Source: Candidatus Zixiibacteriota bacterium
Lineage (GTDB): Bacteria; Zixibacteria; MSB-5A5; GN15; JAAZOE01
Assembly: GCA_030668485.1 (NCBI GenBank)
Contig: DAOUTW010000014.1
Span: forward strand, 1 to 64,000
Direction of reading: 5' to 3'
Length of the DNA stretch: 64,000 nt
Shown here: positions 54,316 to 63,870 of the stretch, piece by piece
Layout of the letters: the number at the start of each line of letters is the position of its first letter
Numbering within the stretch: the first letter of the stretch is position 1
Notes under the pieces: generated by a model
The model's input: the letters and a program-made list of their open reading frames with translations, nothing else
What the model was told of the DNA's origin: nothing
Databases searched by the model: none
Position numbers and translations under genes: made by a program

Positions 54316-56382
54316 CTACCAGGATTCGGGGTCATGGCATCCGATATTGGAGCATTGACCGTCCTGATAGTTCCCTTCACCGCTGGAAAAAACAACATCA
54401 TCTACACCGTCGATATGAACATCAAGACCGATAATATTCACCGATGCATTAACCGTCGACGCATGACATTGATAACATTCAATCCCCTCTTCAACATGAT
54501 CTTTATGCTTGCCGGAAAGATCATGAGGCCTGCTTCCGGCATCATGGCATGATCCACAAACTGCCTGACCGCTCCCGGCGATCCAGTCCGGACTATTACT
54601 TGCATACCCGTCCGGGAAATTGCCGTGGCAATAGGTATTGCTGCAGGTATGAGCCGTACGATCCCATGATGAAGCCGCTCCTGCCAAAGTACCGAAATCC
54701 ATATCGGCCATGCCATCGGAATCAAGATGCCCGGCATCGAGAGGATGCGTCGGCCGGACATGGCATTCAGAACAGGTGATCCCATCTGAAATCAGATTTC
54801 CATTGAGATGTGCCGTATGAGCGCCAACGACCAGGTCGGTCGCCTCATTCTCACCGTCAAGCCCCAGCGGTGGAGCGCCGCTGTTATTATCCTGTCCGCC
54901 GTGACAAACGACACAATTGGTACCGAACGAGTGACAGGCATCGCATAAGGCAAAGTTCGGTGAAAATGACTGGACCGAACCGTTGACATGCAGTGAACTG
55001 TCGATAATATTCAAGCTTTCATCCACTACCGAACCATGACATTCGCTGCATTTGATCGCCGCCGTTCCGACATGAAATTTATGCGATCCCAGAAGGCCCA
55101 GCGACGTCGAATCCCCCTCGACATCATGGCAGGACCCACACCATGTCTGATCCGCCTCTGTCCAGATCGGAATATTCATTGAATTGCCACCCAGGAAATT
55201 ACCGTGACAATAACTGCCACTGCATTCCCCGGTCGTCCGATTCCAAGCCGTCAGACCGTTATCACCCAAGCCGCTCCAGACGATCTCGGCGATCGAATCG
55301 CGGATCGGTTCTCCCAGATCAAGATGAGCCGTATCGACCGTCGCCTCGGGCACCAGATGACAGGTATTACAGTCTATAGCCGCGGCATTGGCGGATGCCG
55401 TCAGGTGAGCCGCATGAGCCCCGACTGCCAAACTGGCGGTTTCGGTTTCATTGCGCAATCCATAGGGTGGCGCACCGGTAGTATCGGCCAGCCCTCCATG
55501 ACACGCCGTGCATTCGGCGACACCGGTACCGTGACAGGCATCGCAAACGGCCTGGTCGGCGATCAGAGTATCGACAAACCCGTTCACATGAAGCGACGGA
55601 TCGGTGATATTCATATTTTCATCGATCATCCCGGCATGACATTGGTAACAACCAAGCCCGAGAATGGCGATATGAAATTCATGCTTCCAGAGAAGTTCGG
55701 CCGGATCATCACCGGCATCGTGACACGATCCGCATAAAGCCTGATCGGTCTCATTCCAGACCGGTATATTAAGGGTATCCCCCCCGGCAAAATTGCCATG
55801 ACAATAAGTATTGGCGCATTGACTATTAGCATGATCCCAAATCGCTTCGCCGCCCTCTTCGATACCGCCCCAAACGATTTCGGCAATCGAATCGAGATCC
55901 GGCGATTCAAGGTGATTGGGATCATCGGGAGTTGCCGGTACCGGATGACAGGTGACGCATGGCACCGCTGCCGATGCGAGCGTTCCTTCAACATGCACCG
56001 TATGAGCACCTACACCCGGAGTAAAAGTACTTGTCTCGCCTCGGAGACCATATGGCGGGGCTCCGGTTCCATTATCAAGACCGCCGTGACAGGTCGTGCA
56101 TCCACCCTCCGCCAGATGGCATTCAACACACGAAACGCCGACCTCGCCTCCGTTCATATCGACGCCATGACATACCCCGCAACCGACACTGCCGGTTGCC
56201 ATCACTATTTTGCCATGAAAATCGGGAGAATCGGCATCTGTCCATGACGATGGATGAGTTAGCGGAAGCGTTCCCGGTTTCTTCTCTTCACTGCACCCGG
56301 CCAATATTGATACCCACACAATACAGAGAACCGCCATCGCAATTAAACTTAACCTGATTAGTCTGTCAGTCCGGCTTCTCAT
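54316..56382 (-). CDS. Outer-surface lipoprotein cytochrome c with 20 haem-binding motifs
   Basis: The 688-residue protein has a lipoprotein signal (SILAGCSEE). I count 16 CxxCH and 4 CX4CH motifs (CANTYCH, CSGSYCH, CSNTYCH, CSNIGCH). The body is three consecutive modules of about 190 residues, each with the order CxxCH, CX4CH-GNF, CGSCHD, CxxCHA/G, CDACH, CxxCHGG. The sequence APPxGLxxE and the VGAHxxHL distal-His region recur in each. CX4CH/CxxCH mixtures occur in Geobacter-type outer-surface cytochromes. Cotranscribed after a barrel protein and a 14-haem cytochrome, it is inferred to be the outward-facing terminal part of an electron conduit. Start ATG 56382 has GGAG upstream. Confidence 0.88.
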   Translation of the reverse strand: MRSRTDRLIRLSLIAMAVLCIVWVSILAGCSEEKKPGTLPLTHPSSWTDADSPDFHGKIVMATGSVGCGVCHGVDMNGGEVGVSCVECHLAEGGCTTCHGGLDNGTGAPPYGLRGETSTFTPGVGAHTVHVEGTLASAAVPCVTCHPVPATPDDPNHLESPDLDSIAEIVWGGIEEGGEAIWDHANSQCANTYCHGNFAGGDTLNIPVWNETDQALCGSCHDAGDDPAELLWKHEFHIAILGLGCYQCHAGMIDENMNITDPSLHVNGFVDTLIADQAVCDACHGTGVAECTACHGGLADTTGAPPYGLRNETETASLAVGAHAAHLTASANAAAIDCNTCHLVPEATVDTAHLDLGEPIRDSIAEIVWSGLGDNGLTAWNRTTGECSGSYCHGNFLGGNSMNIPIWTEADQTWCGSCHDVEGDSTSLGLLGSHKFHVGTAAIKCSECHGSVVDESLNIIDSSLHVNGSVQSFSPNFALCDACHSFGTNCVVCHGGQDNNSGAPPLGLDGENEATDLVVGAHTAHLNGNLISDGITCSECHVRPTHPLDAGHLDSDGMADMDFGTLAGAASSWDRTAHTCSNTYCHGNFPDGYASNSPDWIAGSGQAVCGSCHDAGSRPHDLSGKHKDHVEEGIECYQCHASTVNASVNIIGLDVHIDGVDDVVFSSGEGNYQDGQCSNIGCHDPESW

Positions 56383-56403
56383 CTCAACAACTCCGGTTCT
56401 TCC

Positions 56404-57453
56404 CTAATGATGGCAATATCCACAAAACCCGTCGCCCGCCGGGGTTTTCAGATGACATTGATAACAGTAGTATCCATCGTCATCATGCCAGGGCCCGGCC
56501 ATATCGAATTGCGCCGCATCGGCGCTGTGAATTCGGGAATCGGTTCCCCGTACTCCGTCGAAATCATTGTGACATCCTGCGCGAGCACAGGTCGGATCAC
56601 CCGATTCATGACACGAGGCGCAATTTTCAACATCCTCGCGGGCATATCTACCATGGTCGGTACCCCATGAAAGCGTCGAATGAGCCAGCGGCATTCGCCG
56701 GCCGCTTTCATGACAGGCGACACAGAAGTCCTGATTGTCATGACATTGTCCGCAATCAGCCGCCTTACCTTTGGCGTCCAGCCCGTGAGTATAGATATAA
56801 TTCAGATCATGAATTTCACCGAGGATATTATCCCCCCGATGGCAGTCAAGACAAAATTCCTGTCCCGTATGGCATTCGCCGCACCATTGCGGCTCCGATG
56901 AGGCTCTTTCTCCATGCCGGTGAGACCATTCGAGCGGATGGATATCAAGAAGTGTAACATCACCGCTATGACATACCGCACACTCATTCGCGGCTTGAGC
57001 ACCGTCATGACATTCTGAACAAACCCTCATACCCGGCATTACCACCGAATCAAACCCCTCACTGCTTTTTATACCGGCATGACAATCACCGCACTCCGCT
57101 TTCATGCCCAAATGCTTCTCATGATTAAATACCAATTCTCTTTCGATCAGCGCATATCCGCCCGGTTCATCGGTATTTTTATGACAAATTCCGCATTGCT
57201 CATCATCCTCGACATCATGGCAGTTTCCGCAATCATCCATTGACGGCAGGTTATCATCCGATCCGAGACTGCTCGTTTCAATATTCGCGTGGCAATCTTC
57301 GCACTCGACCTCATTCTCGACCACATGAAACTTATGGGAAAATACGATATCACTCTCCGAGACGGCTGCAGGCACCGACTTTTCACCCCAGCCGCTCGCG
57401 GCTATGCCGATTACCAGTAGTAGAATAAATGGTATGATCCACGGTTTCTTCAT
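56404..57453 (-). CDS. Periplasmic cytochrome c with 14 haem-binding motifs
   Basis: The 349-residue exported protein (signal FILLLVIGIAASGWG) starts at ATG 57453 with AAGGAAGA before it. The open frame extends to 57579 but that part overlaps the barrel gene in another frame. I count 13 CxxCH and 1 CX4CH (CARAGCH). Repeated FSHKFH, FNHEKH and WSHRHG segments look like distal His ligands of the cytochrome c3/c7 class. No lipobox is visible. It is inferred to carry electrons across the periplasm to the 20-haem lipoprotein, whose start is 21 bases downstream. Confidence 0.88.
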   Translation of the reverse strand: MKKPWIIPFILLLVIGIAASGWGEKSVPAAVSESDIVFSHKFHVVENEVECEDCHANIETSSLGSDDNLPSMDDCGNCHDVEDDEQCGICHKNTDEPGGYALIERELVFNHEKHLGMKAECGDCHAGIKSSEGFDSVVMPGMRVCSECHDGAQAANECAVCHSGDVTLLDIHPLEWSHRHGERASSEPQWCGECHTGQEFCLDCHRGDNILGEIHDLNYIYTHGLDAKGKAADCGQCHDNQDFCVACHESGRRMPLAHSTLSWGTDHGRYAREDVENCASCHESGDPTCARAGCHNDFDGVRGTDSRIHSADAAQFDMAGPWHDDDGYYCYQCHLKTPAGDGFCGYCHH

Positions 57454-57469
57454 TATTCTTCCTTTTGCC

Positions 57470-58678
57470 CTACCTGAATGCAAATCCTTTTGTAACCCGG
57501 AAATGAATCCTCGAATCGTATTTCCGAACCGCATTGCGCAAATACTGCCACTCGGCGCGAACCTGGAGATCGCCCCCAAACCGTTTTATTACACCAATCC
57601 CGGATGAATACGCCTCGCTTCTTTGATCCTGATACTCCTGAATGCGGTACTTGGTAATATTCGTATGACCATACACTTGCCAGCTATTCTTAAACTGATA
57701 GTTTACATTCCCCCGCAACCCGTCGCTGTCGCCGCCATAACCCGACTGATGTACCCAGCCAATCGTAAAATAGGTCGTCCGAACGCCGATCCCGGTCGTC
57801 CAGGCATTTTCCGAGGAAAAGAAATCGGCCCTGACATTGCCATAAACAGCCAGTCCGCGCCTGATATTGCGCCGCGCCTCAAAACGAACCTCACGATACC
57901 GCTTGAAATCGATCAGGCTGAAAACGGAATTATACGAGACCGAGGGATCGCGCCATAGGAATTCGCCGGAGAAATACCACTTGGCAACCGTATGCCGCGC
58001 TCGCAGGAGGAATTCGCTCGGCTCCCAGATCTCCGGATTGACCGAAAACCGAGTATATAAATTCATGTCTGCGATCTTCTGCCCGATATTGATTCCCAGG
58101 CGATGATACGATACAGAGCCGTCGTTCTCCCGCCTCATCCAGCCTAATCCGAATCGGGTCTTCGGCCGCAACTGGTAATTCAACTGCCCGCCCAGAACGC
58201 TATTATCGGAGAATGATTCTACCTTCTCCGGATCAAGCCGGCTAACACCGCTCCCCCCGAAAATATCGAATTCGACCTTACTGAAGGGACCGATCTTCAA
58301 TCGCACGCCATCCAGGTGAGCGCTTCCGGCCGCCGAATAAGCAAACTGCCGCCCGGCATGGATTGTTACTCGTCTTGGTCTACATTTGAATTTCAGGTAG
58401 CTATCATAGACAAAGAACTGCGGATCGGAGGCGATTTTATCCTGCCAGTCGCTTTTCCATCGGGAATATGTATGAAATGACAGTGATCGCTCGGCGGTTT
58501 TCCATGCGAGAAGATTAGCCCGGAGTGAAACATATGGCTGCAGATGATCCTCATCCCCCCCGTTCCAACTGTACAGGTCGCCCGACAGGCTCCCCTTCAG
58601 TTCAGCCGCCGCAGATGGCTGAATACCGGTCACCGCCAATGCCGTCGCGGCTATGAGGATTACGAGAAATCTTTGCAC
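57470..58678 (-). CDS. Outer-membrane beta-barrel protein of the cytochrome operon
   Basis: The 402-residue exported protein (signal ending PSAAA) is composed of alternating polar/aromatic strands throughout, e.g. VTIHAGRQFAYSAAG, TRFGLGWMRRENDGSVSYHRLGINIGQKI and RTTYFTIGWVHQSGYGG, as in 16-20 strand barrels. It lacks CxxCH motifs. It is the first gene of the operon and ends 17 bases before the 14-haem cytochrome start. By analogy with porin-cytochrome complexes of Geobacter and MtrB of Shewanella it would be the sheath that holds the cytochromes in the outer membrane. No clear sequence similarity to those porins can be claimed from reading. Confidence 0.72.
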   Translation of the reverse strand: MQRFLVILIAATALAVTGIQPSAAAELKGSLSGDLYSWNGGDEDHLQPYVSLRANLLAWKTAERSLSFHTYSRWKSDWQDKIASDPQFFVYDSYLKFKCRPRRVTIHAGRQFAYSAAGSAHLDGVRLKIGPFSKVEFDIFGGSGVSRLDPEKVESFSDNSVLGGQLNYQLRPKTRFGLGWMRRENDGSVSYHRLGINIGQKIADMNLYTRFSVNPEIWEPSEFLLRARHTVAKWYFSGEFLWRDPSVSYNSVFSLIDFKRYREVRFEARRNIRRGLAVYGNVRADFFSSENAWTTGIGVRTTYFTIGWVHQSGYGGDSDGLRGNVNYQFKNSWQVYGHTNITKYRIQEYQDQRSEAYSSGIGVIKRFGGDLQVRAEWQYLRNAVRKYDSRIHFRVTKGFAFR

Positions 58679-59465: not shown

Positions 59466-61886
59466 TTAATTATCCGCCCTACTCCTCCCCAATTCCCTGA
59501 TATCTTTCTTTCGCCGCGCTTCAACCAAATGATTATGAATATCCGGCGGCGATAATGATTTCCCTTTAAAGGCCAGAAATACATAACTGGCCACCACCGC
59601 ACCACCCGCAATGAAATAGGTATATGGCTCCATCGTATCCCAGCCGTATTTTATTGTCGATATGGCCAGCCCAATAAAGACAACAGCCAGTACTGATGCA
59701 AAGAAAATAAACCACCGCCGCGCATACTCATGCGCCTTTTTATTGATTAACTTCATAACCGTTGGATCAACTACCTTAGGCATTCCGCGTTCATGGCCCC
59801 CACCTTCCTTTGAAATAGACTGGCCCGTCCTTTCCGTCTCTATTCCTTCAAGCAAATCCTTTACAGAGTATTTCTTGGCAGCCCCCTCCGGAACATATGT
59901 TTCTTCCCGTAGGTTTTCCAGATTTAGCAAATGCTCATACCCAACCGTGATGTCCGGATTATCCGGCAACGGCACCCTTTGCTCGGCCTTGATCTTGGCG
60001 ATTGTCTTATGGATTTCGGCGAATTCAGCCCTGATCATCGACAGACAACCCCGTCGTGTCTGTTCCGGCCCGATAACCTTGACATAGATTTTGTTGTCTG
60101 CAATATCCGCCTTCACCTGTGCTTTGTTACCGTCATTCTCCAATACTACCCCGGTGCGCCAATATGTGTTCTTAAAAATATGAGCATGCATCCGCACGAT
60201 AAAACGTGAAACAACACTGCCGGGGAGGACATCATAATGATACTGAAAATTCAGCGCATCCGTCCATTCGCCGGTAAACGGTTCATCCTTGGGTAGTAAA
60301 TCCGGAATCAGGAATTTTTCATTCGGATACCCGGGGAAATCGAAACACAACTCGAATTTCTGCATCATCCCCACTATAAAAAGGTGTTTGTTTTCGGGAT
60401 ATTTATTCTGATCCAGAACATTCTTGAGCTTGGTCCTTTCCAGAACTCCCTTATTCAAAAATATTTCTCTATTGTTTAGAATACGATACACGCCGTTGGT
60501 TACCCATTCCGGATTGAGAATATTCATATCCTCAAGCAACGGATTGTCTCGGAAATTCAAGAGAACACCCAGATCATTTAAAAAACCAATAAGGGTCTTC
60601 TTGCTCTGTTCGTTGGTGATTCCATTATCCCTGCATATCAGTTCATATCTCTCATAGGAGATATAATCTTCGGTGTAATCTTCGAGGATACGCTTTACCT
60701 CAAGCCAGGTATTAAGCAACTGATCATGGACATGTTCCAGAGCATCAACCTGTTGGGTGATGATCTCTTTCAATTCCTCAATCCCGACCGGTTCTTTGCA
60801 TGACGTTTCCAGAATCGTCTTGATTTGCGGATATTTGGCCTGCAGGCCGCTTTTATTTATATCCATCGCCTGCACATCGCATTTATTACCGACGATAATA
60901 ATCGGTGAATCACCGCCGAAACTCTGGATTATCTTAAGCCAATACTCAATCCGGTTTTCCTCTTCAGCAAGGCGACAATCAAGCACGAGTAGATAAAGAC
61001 TGCGTTTTGTTAGGAAAAACTGATGGGTAGCGTGCATTATTTCCTGTCCGCCGAAATCCCAGACATTGAGCTGGACATCTTCTCTATTTACGACAATCTT
61101 CCACGGCCGGATTTCTATCCCCTCGGTTTTCTTCTCATCGGGATCAAAACAGTTGTCGATTAAACGATTAACCAATGATGTTTTGCCCACACTCCCCTGT
61201 CCCACCAATACCATCTTGGCTTCATTCAACGGTCGCTTGGCTCCCGCCTCATGCTCGAAATAATAATTGATGATGGCTTGCGGATCATCCGTTTTTGCCG
61301 CTATCTCGGGCGGGATGGGAAGATTGTTATTTTCTATATAAAAGTGCTTTAATTGACGTAAATTTTGCGTTTCTGCCGGCAACGAGGTCAGTTGGTTAGA
61401 AGAAAGATAAAGCTCCGTCAGGTTGGTCAACTGCCCGATTTCGGGCGGCAACGAGGTCAGTTGGTTATTAAAAAGTGTGAAAACACTCAGGTTGGCCAAC
61501 TGCCCGATTTCGGGCGGCAACGAGGCCAGTTGGTTAGAATGAAGATAAAGCGTCGTCAGGTTGGTCAACTGCCCGATTTCGGGCGGCAACGAGGTCAGTT
61601 GGTTAGAATTAAGATGAAGCCCCGTCAGGTTGGTCAACTGCCCGATTTCGGGCGGCAACGAGGTCAGTTGGTTAATAGAAAGAGAAAGCGTCGTCAGGTT
61701 GGTCAACTGCCCGATTTCGGGCGGCAACGAGGTCAGTTGGTTAGAATGAAGATAAAGCCGAGTCAGGTTGGTCAACTGCCCGATTTCGGGCGGCAGTTTG
61801 GTTATGTTTTTCTCGGAAAGATCAAGTGTTTCGGTTTTATCCCTGACAACCTTATTAATGATTTTCAATAATTCTTTTTTTTTCAT
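59466..61886 (-). CDS. Membrane-anchored LRR-Roc-COR (Roco) GTPase
   Basis: The 806-residue protein opens with about seven leucine-rich repeats (15-200; 23-residue unit LPPEIGQLTNLTxLxLxxNQLTS). The Roc GTPase domain follows, with P-loop GQGSVGKTS (229-237), WDFGGQE (G3) and NKCD (G4). Next is the COR dimerisation region (about 400-640). Near 720-775 two hydrophobic helices (WFIFFASVLAVVFIGLAI; YFIAGGAVVASYVFLAF) suggest membrane anchoring, and a short basic tail ends the protein. Bacterial Roco proteins act as GTP-dependent conformational switches, but their partners are mostly unknown. It is a single gene with no cotranscribed partner. The repeats are nearly identical at DNA level. Confidence 0.92.
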   Translation of the reverse strand: MKKKELLKIINKVVRDKTETLDLSEKNITKLPPEIGQLTNLTRLYLHSNQLTSLPPEIGQLTNLTTLSLSINQLTSLPPEIGQLTNLTGLHLNSNQLTSLPPEIGQLTNLTTLYLHSNQLASLPPEIGQLANLSVFTLFNNQLTSLPPEIGQLTNLTELYLSSNQLTSLPAETQNLRQLKHFYIENNNLPIPPEIAAKTDDPQAIINYYFEHEAGAKRPLNEAKMVLVGQGSVGKTSLVNRLIDNCFDPDEKKTEGIEIRPWKIVVNREDVQLNVWDFGGQEIMHATHQFFLTKRSLYLLVLDCRLAEEENRIEYWLKIIQSFGGDSPIIIVGNKCDVQAMDINKSGLQAKYPQIKTILETSCKEPVGIEELKEIITQQVDALEHVHDQLLNTWLEVKRILEDYTEDYISYERYELICRDNGITNEQSKKTLIGFLNDLGVLLNFRDNPLLEDMNILNPEWVTNGVYRILNNREIFLNKGVLERTKLKNVLDQNKYPENKHLFIVGMMQKFELCFDFPGYPNEKFLIPDLLPKDEPFTGEWTDALNFQYHYDVLPGSVVSRFIVRMHAHIFKNTYWRTGVVLENDGNKAQVKADIADNKIYVKVIGPEQTRRGCLSMIRAEFAEIHKTIAKIKAEQRVPLPDNPDITVGYEHLLNLENLREETYVPEGAAKKYSVKDLLEGIETERTGQSISKEGGGHERGMPKVVDPTVMKLINKKAHEYARRWFIFFASVLAVVFIGLAISTIKYGWDTMEPYTYFIAGGAVVASYVFLAFKGKSLSPPDIHNHLVEARRKKDIRELGRSRADN
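61419..61799 (-). repeat. 69-bp tandem DNA repeats encoding the leucine-rich repeats
   Basis: Six successive units keep the DNA word for LPPEIGQL(T/A)NL almost unchanged and vary mainly in the few bases coding the solvent-exposed x positions. This indicates recent expansion or ongoing homogenisation of the array inside the Roco gene. Confidence 0.88.
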
Positions 61887-62905: not shown

Positions 62906-63047
62906 ATCGCGATACTCTCAGAAGGGCTTGACTTTATGGCCTAATGTATTAAATTTCAGCGGTTATTGTCAATTCGGGTTCAGAGGGGAACTTTTAAGAC
63001 CGAATTGCAATACAATGAAAAAGGCTGACCAAATAACTGGAGGAAGA

Positions 63048-63809
63048 ATGCAAAAAACCTGGCTTGCTACCGCAATATTAGCCATTCTCGTCCTGCTCTT
63101 CGTTTCTCAGGCAATGGCGGTACCCAAAATGTTTCTGCCTGAGGAAAAATTCGATTTCGGTTTTGTCCCTCAGGATAGCAAGATATCCCATGTTTTCTGG
63201 ATAAAATCGGTCGGCGACGACACTCTGAAGATTCTCAACGTAAAGCCTGGCTGAGGCTGCACCAAAGCTCCTTTGAAGAATAAGGAGATTGCTGTCGGTG
63301 ACAGCACAGAGCTTGAAATTATCTACATAACCGGTAAACGACGCGGCACAAGCAGCAAAAGCCCGTCTATTCAGACCAATGAAGGCCCGCCTCAACGTAA
63401 GGTAACGATTCGGGCAACGGCCGTTCAACAACCCGATTCCACCTATCCGATAACCTTGAAGCCGTATAAGATATATGTTTCGCGAGCTGGTAAGGTGGAA
63501 GTCGATTTCGCCAAGTTCACGGTCAGAAATGTATCCGATGCCGATCTGGGACTGTCCGTCGTCGGGCAACCTTCTGGTTATTTTGACCTGGAGGTTCCTG
63601 AAAGCGTCCCGGCCGGAGATTCGGTTCAATGTAAGTTGACCGTCAACCCGGAATTCCTCGAGACGACCTTTGAAAAATCTATTACGCTGGAACTCAGCGA
63701 TGCCGCTCATAGCCGCTTTACCATTCCGGTGGTCCGGCGCCTGATCGGCCCCCAAAAGACCGCCGCCACCAATCCGGCTCCTGATAAAAAAGCCGGCGGC
63801 AAGAAATAA
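63048..63809 (+). CDS. Exported DUF1573-type selenoprotein (Sec69 encoded by in-frame UGA at 63252-63254)
   Basis: I read one 253-residue protein through a UGA codon. The start ATG 63048 has TGGAGGAAG before it and a signal peptide (ILAILVLLFVSQAMA). The DUF1573 (ASH-like Ig fold) domain follows: FDFGFVPQDSKISHVFWIKSVGDDTLKILNVKPG, then UGA, then GCTKAPLKNKEIAVGDS. In this family that position is normally Cys, giving P-G/S-C-G-C-T, so UGA replaces the first Cys of the C-x-C pair and gives U-G-C. The frame continues without interruption for 184 codons into a second Ig-like domain and a Lys-rich tail. A SECIS-like hairpin follows the UGA at once. The protein should be periplasmic or surface-exposed; a thiol/selenol redox or metal-binding role is inferred. 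The alternative is a TGC-to-TGA mutation or sequencing error. A terminator follows the stop. Confidence 0.82.
63262..63290 (+). promoter_or_regulatory. Candidate bacterial SECIS hairpin
   Basis: CTCCTT (63268-63273) pairs with AAGGAG (63282-63287), extended by AA/UU across one G-A mismatch. The loop is UGAAGAAU, with G in position 2, and starts 19 bases after the UGA. These values meet the published bacterial SECIS rules (loop 16-37 bases after UGA; G in the first two loop bases). A second perfect hairpin, GCTGTC-GGT-GACAGC, follows at 63291-63305. Confidence 0.65.
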
Positions 63810-63832: not shown

Positions 63833-63870
63833 CGGCCTGCTCGAAAAAAAAGCGAGCGGGCCGCTTTTTT
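63833..63870 (+). terminator. Rho-independent terminator of the selenoprotein gene
   Basis: CGGCCTGCTCG (63833-63843) pairs with CGAGCGGGCCG (63853-63863) with one G.U pair, followed by C and six T residues. It lies 24 bases after the TAA stop at 63807-63809, which supports that stop, not the UGA, as the gene's end. Confidence 0.9.

Follow-up and report, generated by a model that had tools for sequence, protein, structure and literature searches.

A DUF1573 protein gene of Zixibacteria with a probable selenocysteine in a U-x-C motif and two hairpins downstream of its UGA codon

The window, i.e., the whole stretch of DNA analyzed here (64,000 nt, positions 1 to 64,000 of contig DAOUTW010000014.1, assembly GCA_030668485.1, Candidatus Zixiibacteriota bacterium), contains near its end a DUF1573 gene with an in-frame UGA. 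The features of the locus are given below. In the SECIS numbering the U of UGA is 0, hairpin 1 covers 15-36 and hairpin 2 covers 39-53.

63039..63044, + strand: ribosome-binding site GGAGGA, 3 nt 5' of the ATG (sequence)
63048..63809, + strand: DUF1573 gene, very probably of a selenoprotein, 253 aa, ending at TAA (translation, Pfam, homologue search)
63048..63119, + strand: probable signal peptide, judged by eye to be cleaved after AMA
63141..63419, + strand: N-terminal Ig/ASH-like domain, PF07610 DUF1573, with U-x-C in an inter-strand loop (Pfam, AlphaFold model)
63252..63254, + strand: predicted selenocysteine UGA codon, residue 69 (translation, homologue comparison, phylum pattern scan)
63258..63260, + strand: TGC, i.e., Cys71 of U-x-C, invariant column in alignment A1 (translation, alignment)
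63267..63288, + strand: candidate SECIS hairpin 1, variable sequence with conserved structure (GCnCC...GGnGC), proposed extruded spacer (covariation, codon shuffles, folding)
63291..63305, + strand: candidate SECIS hairpin 2, GCUGUC-GGU-GACAGC, near-invariant, loop at 63297-63299, proposed SelB-binding hairpin (codon freeze, folding, pattern scan)
63435..63737, + strand: C-terminal Ig-like domain, approximate limits (AlphaFold model, mean pLDDT 95.4)
63833..63870, no strand assigned: terminator-like stem and T run between convergent genes, approximate limits (stem z = -5.5, T6)

When UGA is read as U, translation of 63048-63809 (+) gives a protein of 253 aa with a TAA stop at 63807-63809. The UGA at 63252-63254 is the sole one in this frame. 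It corresponds to residue 69, sits on the first Cys of a CxC motif (context KPG-U-GCTKAPL) and is followed by 184 codons. Coordinates, frame, position of the UGA and the Cys column on which it falls are exactly as claimed in the first-pass annotation, which was made from the letters alone, and its remarks on the surroundings of the gene are borne out: the ribosome site is present upstream, the N-terminus (MQKTWLATAILAILVLLFVSQAMA) is signal-peptide-like by eye, and the strong terminator announced after the TAA corresponds to the stem with T6 at about 63833-63870. A consensus terminator scan with a loop limit of 8 missed this stem, probably because its loop has 9 nt. Elsewhere in the window UGA is an ordinary stop; since it ends 11 of the 34 long frames, a reassignment of the code is rejected.

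The DUF1573 domain (PF07610) is recognized by Pfam with E = 2.1e-23 (82.6 bits vs. a gathering value of 26.1), and the related HYDIN-like Ig domain is matched as well. The AlphaFold model (50-row alignment) consists of two Ig-like domains, with a pLDDT of 95.4 and a pTM of 0.89; residues 69 and 71 fall within the first one, in an inter-strand loop. A sequence search of the PDB with the DUF1573 protein gave no match, and the fold search of the PDB gave generic Ig/ASH matches only, including P. gingivalis 2qsv. The HYDIN/CFA65/ASPM-SPD-2 (ASH) proteins and 2qsv share the two-domain Ig-like fold with the window protein, but identity is 9-18% and the superposition of the two domains is poor (TM about 0.4). 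To our knowledge, no U-x-C-type redox motif occurs in these proteins.

A DUF1573 homologue is present in 98 of the 99 genomes searched, i.e., the own genome of the window and 98 relatives; those with a name are metagenome-assembled genomes. Most of the best homologues have exactly one internal TGA, and dozens of such cases were listed. Among the 162 distinct motif windows retrieved, the column of residue 69 (for which the first-pass annotation had suggested this comparison) is occupied by UGA in 82 and by a Cys codon in 80. A chance UGA is thus excluded. The independent decay in sister genomes that the same annotation had named as a refutation did not occur. The own genome contains five DUF1573 genes, four of them with an in-frame TGA and all four reading UGCT at the motif. 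The further UGA-bearing genes, with UGA at the same column, are:

G000 C2:855-1130 (L064/L069), lipoprotein-like
G000 C77:52700-52987 (L061/L067), with another hairpin 2 sequence
G000 C116:58169-58456 (L062/L068), with another hairpin 2 sequence

Sec and Cys copies are often found in tandem. On a tree of 144 rows, obtained by a quick search and unsure in its details, 17 Sec/Cys label changes are needed, 10 of them forced by starred branches. No relative was found in the viral contigs searched.

The genome of the window (4.5 Mb, 139 contigs, 99.95% complete) contains the four genes of the selenocysteine machinery whose presence was to be checked according to the first-pass annotation, each above its curated cut-off: selA (505.9 bits), selB (327.8 bits), tRNA-Sec, i.e., selC (73.5 bits), and selD (381.2 bits). 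selA and selB are adjacent on contig 40, which also carries tRNA-Sec, while selD is on contig 39 and itself contains an in-frame TGA, at SCAG-U-ASK. There is thus strong support for a DUF1573 selenoprotein with U-x-C, given by selABCD, by the 82 UGA and 80 Cys codons and by an RNA structure that is under selection in Sec forms only (see below). Judged from these sequence comparisons, UGA 63252-63254 is almost certainly a site of Sec insertion.

It must be noticed that SelD appears as a selenoprotein in most of the Zixibacteria searched (L090, L168-L196). Several genomes (e.g., G017, G025, G029, G045 and G049) contain, in addition, a SelD that lacks UGA and is part of a longer open frame of ~740 aa, perhaps a fusion.

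Concerning the role of the motif, Sec69-Gly-Cys71 would most likely be an extracytoplasmic thiol/selenol redox site, working through a selenenylsulfide/dithiol cycle. A redox role of U-x-C, rather than a metal-binding or structural one, is given about an even chance. Neither the neighbours of the gene nor its fold matches indicate a specific redox partner. A binding of metal or a structural role, without thiol-disulfide exchange, is possible although rather doubtful: the fold is Ig-like and not that of thioredoxin, soft metals are also bound by CxC motifs in general, and His residue 48 is near-invariant in alignment A1; however, Sec is normally retained where redox reactivity is needed, and the 17 label changes mean that Sec and Cys are frequently exchanged.

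The loop of hairpin 2 starts 42 nt past the UGA, on a stem of 6 bp, and the triloop GGU is closed by C-G. The sequence GCUGUC-GG(U/C)-GACAG(C/U) is found in 80 main-group Sec genes, with one first-base exception. The codons of hairpin 2 appear frozen in these 80 forms when compared with the same-gene background: GUC for Val in 80/80 (background 0.33), GAC for Asp in 80/80 (0.47), AGY for Ser in 80/80 (0.31) and GCU for Ala in 79/80 (0.31). The third base of the loop is a pyrimidine in 80/80. This invariance is due in part to the fixed peptide AVGDS. Cys forms mostly have Pro where Sec forms have the Val of hairpin 2, and are without the hairpin; thus a residue of the protein seems to have been imposed by the RNA. 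Hairpin 2 is retained in two Cys forms, exactly (GCUGUCGGUGACAGC) in L112 of genome G041, and with the loop GGA in the Cys copy of L031 (G025, contig 50), which lies beside its Sec sister copy. In both it is probably a fossil of a recent replacement of Sec by Cys. At the place of hairpin 2, the paralogues of contigs C77 and C116 have UUCCCC-CGGGC-GGGGAA.

Folding of both hairpins differs between Sec and Cys forms in protein-preserving codon shuffles. The mean Z is -2.97 for hairpin 1 in Sec forms vs. -0.11 in Cys forms, and -3.17 vs. -0.39 for hairpin 2. Within hairpin 1, positions 17 and 34 (the synonymous third base of an Ala codon and the second base of a codon, respectively) pair in 88% of Sec forms vs. 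48% after shuffling, the values for Cys forms being 37% and 37%. Positions 20 and 31 pair in 72% of Sec forms vs. 45% after shuffling, and Cys forms are without excess. Phylogenetically independent pairs favour 17:34 covariation in their direction (3.9 vs. 0), but just four of them lie on starred, i.e., well-supported, branches, a number too small for significance. When nt 15-56 of the Sec forms are folded, the optimum contains hairpin 2 in 80/82 and some hairpin 1 in 82/82. The pattern UGA-GGN-UGY-N30-GCUGUCGGYGACAGY matches 92 of the 133 genomes of the phylum Zixibacteria, and its backwards control matches 0. A search of Rfam gave no relevant match. One long hairpin, obtained from the single-sequence fold of the window by pairing of GCUGCACC with GGUGACAGC, was not retained, since its GGN and ACN codons vary freely at the third base across the family, in which hairpins 1 and 2 are maintained. 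Both hairpins are very probably parts of the SECIS element.

In the bSECIS model the distance between UGA and apical loop is 16-37 nt (PMC13188914; PMC10778597). Hairpin 2, at 42 nt, is outside this range and the loop of hairpin 1, at ~17-21 nt, is inside. Hairpin 2 resembles the canonical bSECIS (PMC13188914, Fig. 2) as a coding-sequence stem-loop after UGA, with a short apical loop that starts with GG and is closed by C-G; it differs in the 42 nt that separate the conserved loop from the UGA and in the second selected hairpin placed between them. The SelD hairpins of the Zixibacteria give another reference: most have a 3-nt loop, GGU or GUU, at 20 nt from the UGA. The two elements have in common a short stem, a 3-nt loop that is mostly GGU or GUU in SelD, and a linker of 14 nt before the 6-nt arm, but in SelD there is a single hairpin. 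Hairpin 1 spans 22 nt, so that the distance of hairpin 2 without hairpin 1 is 42-22=20 nt; with hairpin 1 left aside, the linker amounts to 12+2 = 14 nt, equal to that of SelD. From these two values we infer that SelB would sit on hairpin 2, with hairpin 1 as an extruded spacer. Hairpin 2 is, with fair confidence, the candidate for the element contacted by SelB.

In the main alternative, hairpin 1 would be an ordinary SelB-binding SECIS with normal spacing, and hairpin 2 would be accessory (e.g., slowing the ribosome or stabilizing hairpin 1 by stacking). This is unlikely. In the members scanned, the loop of hairpin 1 does lie ~17-21 nt past the UGA, a G is found within two bases of the loop start in 69/82, and the folding of hairpin 1 is strongly selected. 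However, its loop drifts (GAAA, GAGA, GGAAAA, GCT and others), with G[G/U] near the start in just 28/82, whereas the GGY loop of hairpin 2 resembles the GGU/GUU of SelD in the same bacteria and is near-invariant throughout the phylum.

A reading of the UGA by a near-cognate tRNA (Trp, Arg or Cys) in place of Sec is very improbable. Such readthrough is, as generally known, a possible source of some full-length product when selenium is scarce, but the column is Cys in the retrieved homologues without UGA, a SECIS-like structure follows the codon, selABCD is present and SelD has a UGA in most genomes. That UGA is a premature stop, in a pseudogene, through a sequencing error or as programmed truncation to 68 aa, has a practically negligible probability, for although UGA terminates other frames of the window in the normal way, the same codon is found in independent genomes by the dozen with the protein conserved on both sides, the RNA hairpins are selected in UGA forms only and the full Sec machinery is present; pseudogene and sequencing error are rejected by the conserved UGA homologues and the 92/133-genome pattern.

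The proposed mechanism, with selenocysteine insertion at the UGA, can then be described as follows. The ribosome would decode UGA 63252-63254 as Sec by means of SelA, SelB, tRNA-Sec and SelD of the same genome, and a bipartite SECIS located just 3' of the UGA would direct the insertion. SelB would bind hairpin 2 while hairpin 1 loops out 22 nt, thereby bringing hairpin 2 to an effective distance of 20 nt, which matches the one-hairpin SelD SECIS of Zixibacteria. The explanation as a whole (a Sec gene, a bipartite SECIS with a proposed role for each hairpin, and an exported two-domain protein with a likely redox site) is proposed with good confidence on the basis of sequence comparisons.

DUF1573 selenoproteins as such are already described, contrary to the suggestion of the first-pass annotation that the protein could belong to a new selenoprotein family. 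A table of the GOS survey (PMC2398784) contains 'OS_HP2, pfam07610, UxC', represented by two Sec sequences, and 'DUF1573 domain-containing protein, UGC' is named in two reviews (PMC9312934, PMC13188914). The family also has a model in NCBIfam, NF041425 'OS_HP2 family (seleno)protein', on which the window protein scores 71.0 bits, i.e., below the cut-off of 100, and paralogues of the own genome score 49.1 and 89.9 bits vs. the same cut-off. The window protein is a relative of NF041425 that is not filed under that model. The reviews credit an earlier paper for the DUF1573 selenoproteins, which, judging by the references of the GOS survey, is taken to be the 2007 Olavius symbiont study. With the OS_HP2/DUF1573 family the window protein shares the pfam07610 domain, Sec as first residue of U-x-C and the tripeptide UGC; it differs in belonging to a Zixibacteria-wide set and, as far as the genes of Zixibacteria compared here show, in its bipartite SECIS. 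A scan of genome contigs gave just two loci, of this same lineage.

On selenoproteins of Zixibacteria, a limited search of the literature gave nothing but a list of genomes in work on other bacteria, and a bacterial SECIS made of two hairpins was not found described in it, which is no proof of absence. Within this search, the spread of Sec in DUF1573 (pattern match in 92/133 genomes, four Sec copies in the own genome) and the form of the SECIS were found undescribed. Some bacterial SECIS elements are known to deviate from the bSECIS model (PMC13188914), thus an atypical element is not in itself unexpected. With slightly better than even probability, the element represents an undescribed class of SECIS, in which the SelB hairpin lies past the distance limit, the spacing is restored by extrusion of a sequence-free hairpin, and the arrangement is kept throughout the DUF1573 selenoprotein genes of Zixibacteria.

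An exported Ig-like selenoprotein so far obtained from scattered metagenomic sequences thus appears common, and sometimes multi-copy, in Zixibacteria. If hairpin 2 is the SelB site, the gene is a clear case where the standard distance rule for SECIS picks the wrong hairpin or misses the element. A testable question is raised, i.e., whether SelB-dependent decoding measures RNA length or spatial distance. The Sec/Cys sister pairs with probable fossil hairpins would be a good system to follow the change from Sec to Cys.

Next to the DUF1573 gene, in convergent orientation, lies an efflux-type operon that is strongly conserved and keeps this place throughout the order:

L041:4446-13901, corresponding to G000 contig 26, about 64445-73900: convergent operon

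This operon encodes Yip1, TolC, HlyD, an ABC ATPase, two MacB/FtsX permeases, a GWxTD-domain protein and a protein of 480 aa for which Pfam gives no match. Being convergent, it does not form one operon with the DUF1573 gene, and no function is inferred from it. Elsewhere in the window, 59466-61886 (-) encodes leucine-rich repeats followed by an apparent Roc/Ras-like GTPase domain, of the LRR-Roc type by eye, and 54316-57579 (-) encodes two adjoining proteins that resemble multihaem c-type cytochromes and contain many CxxCH motifs.
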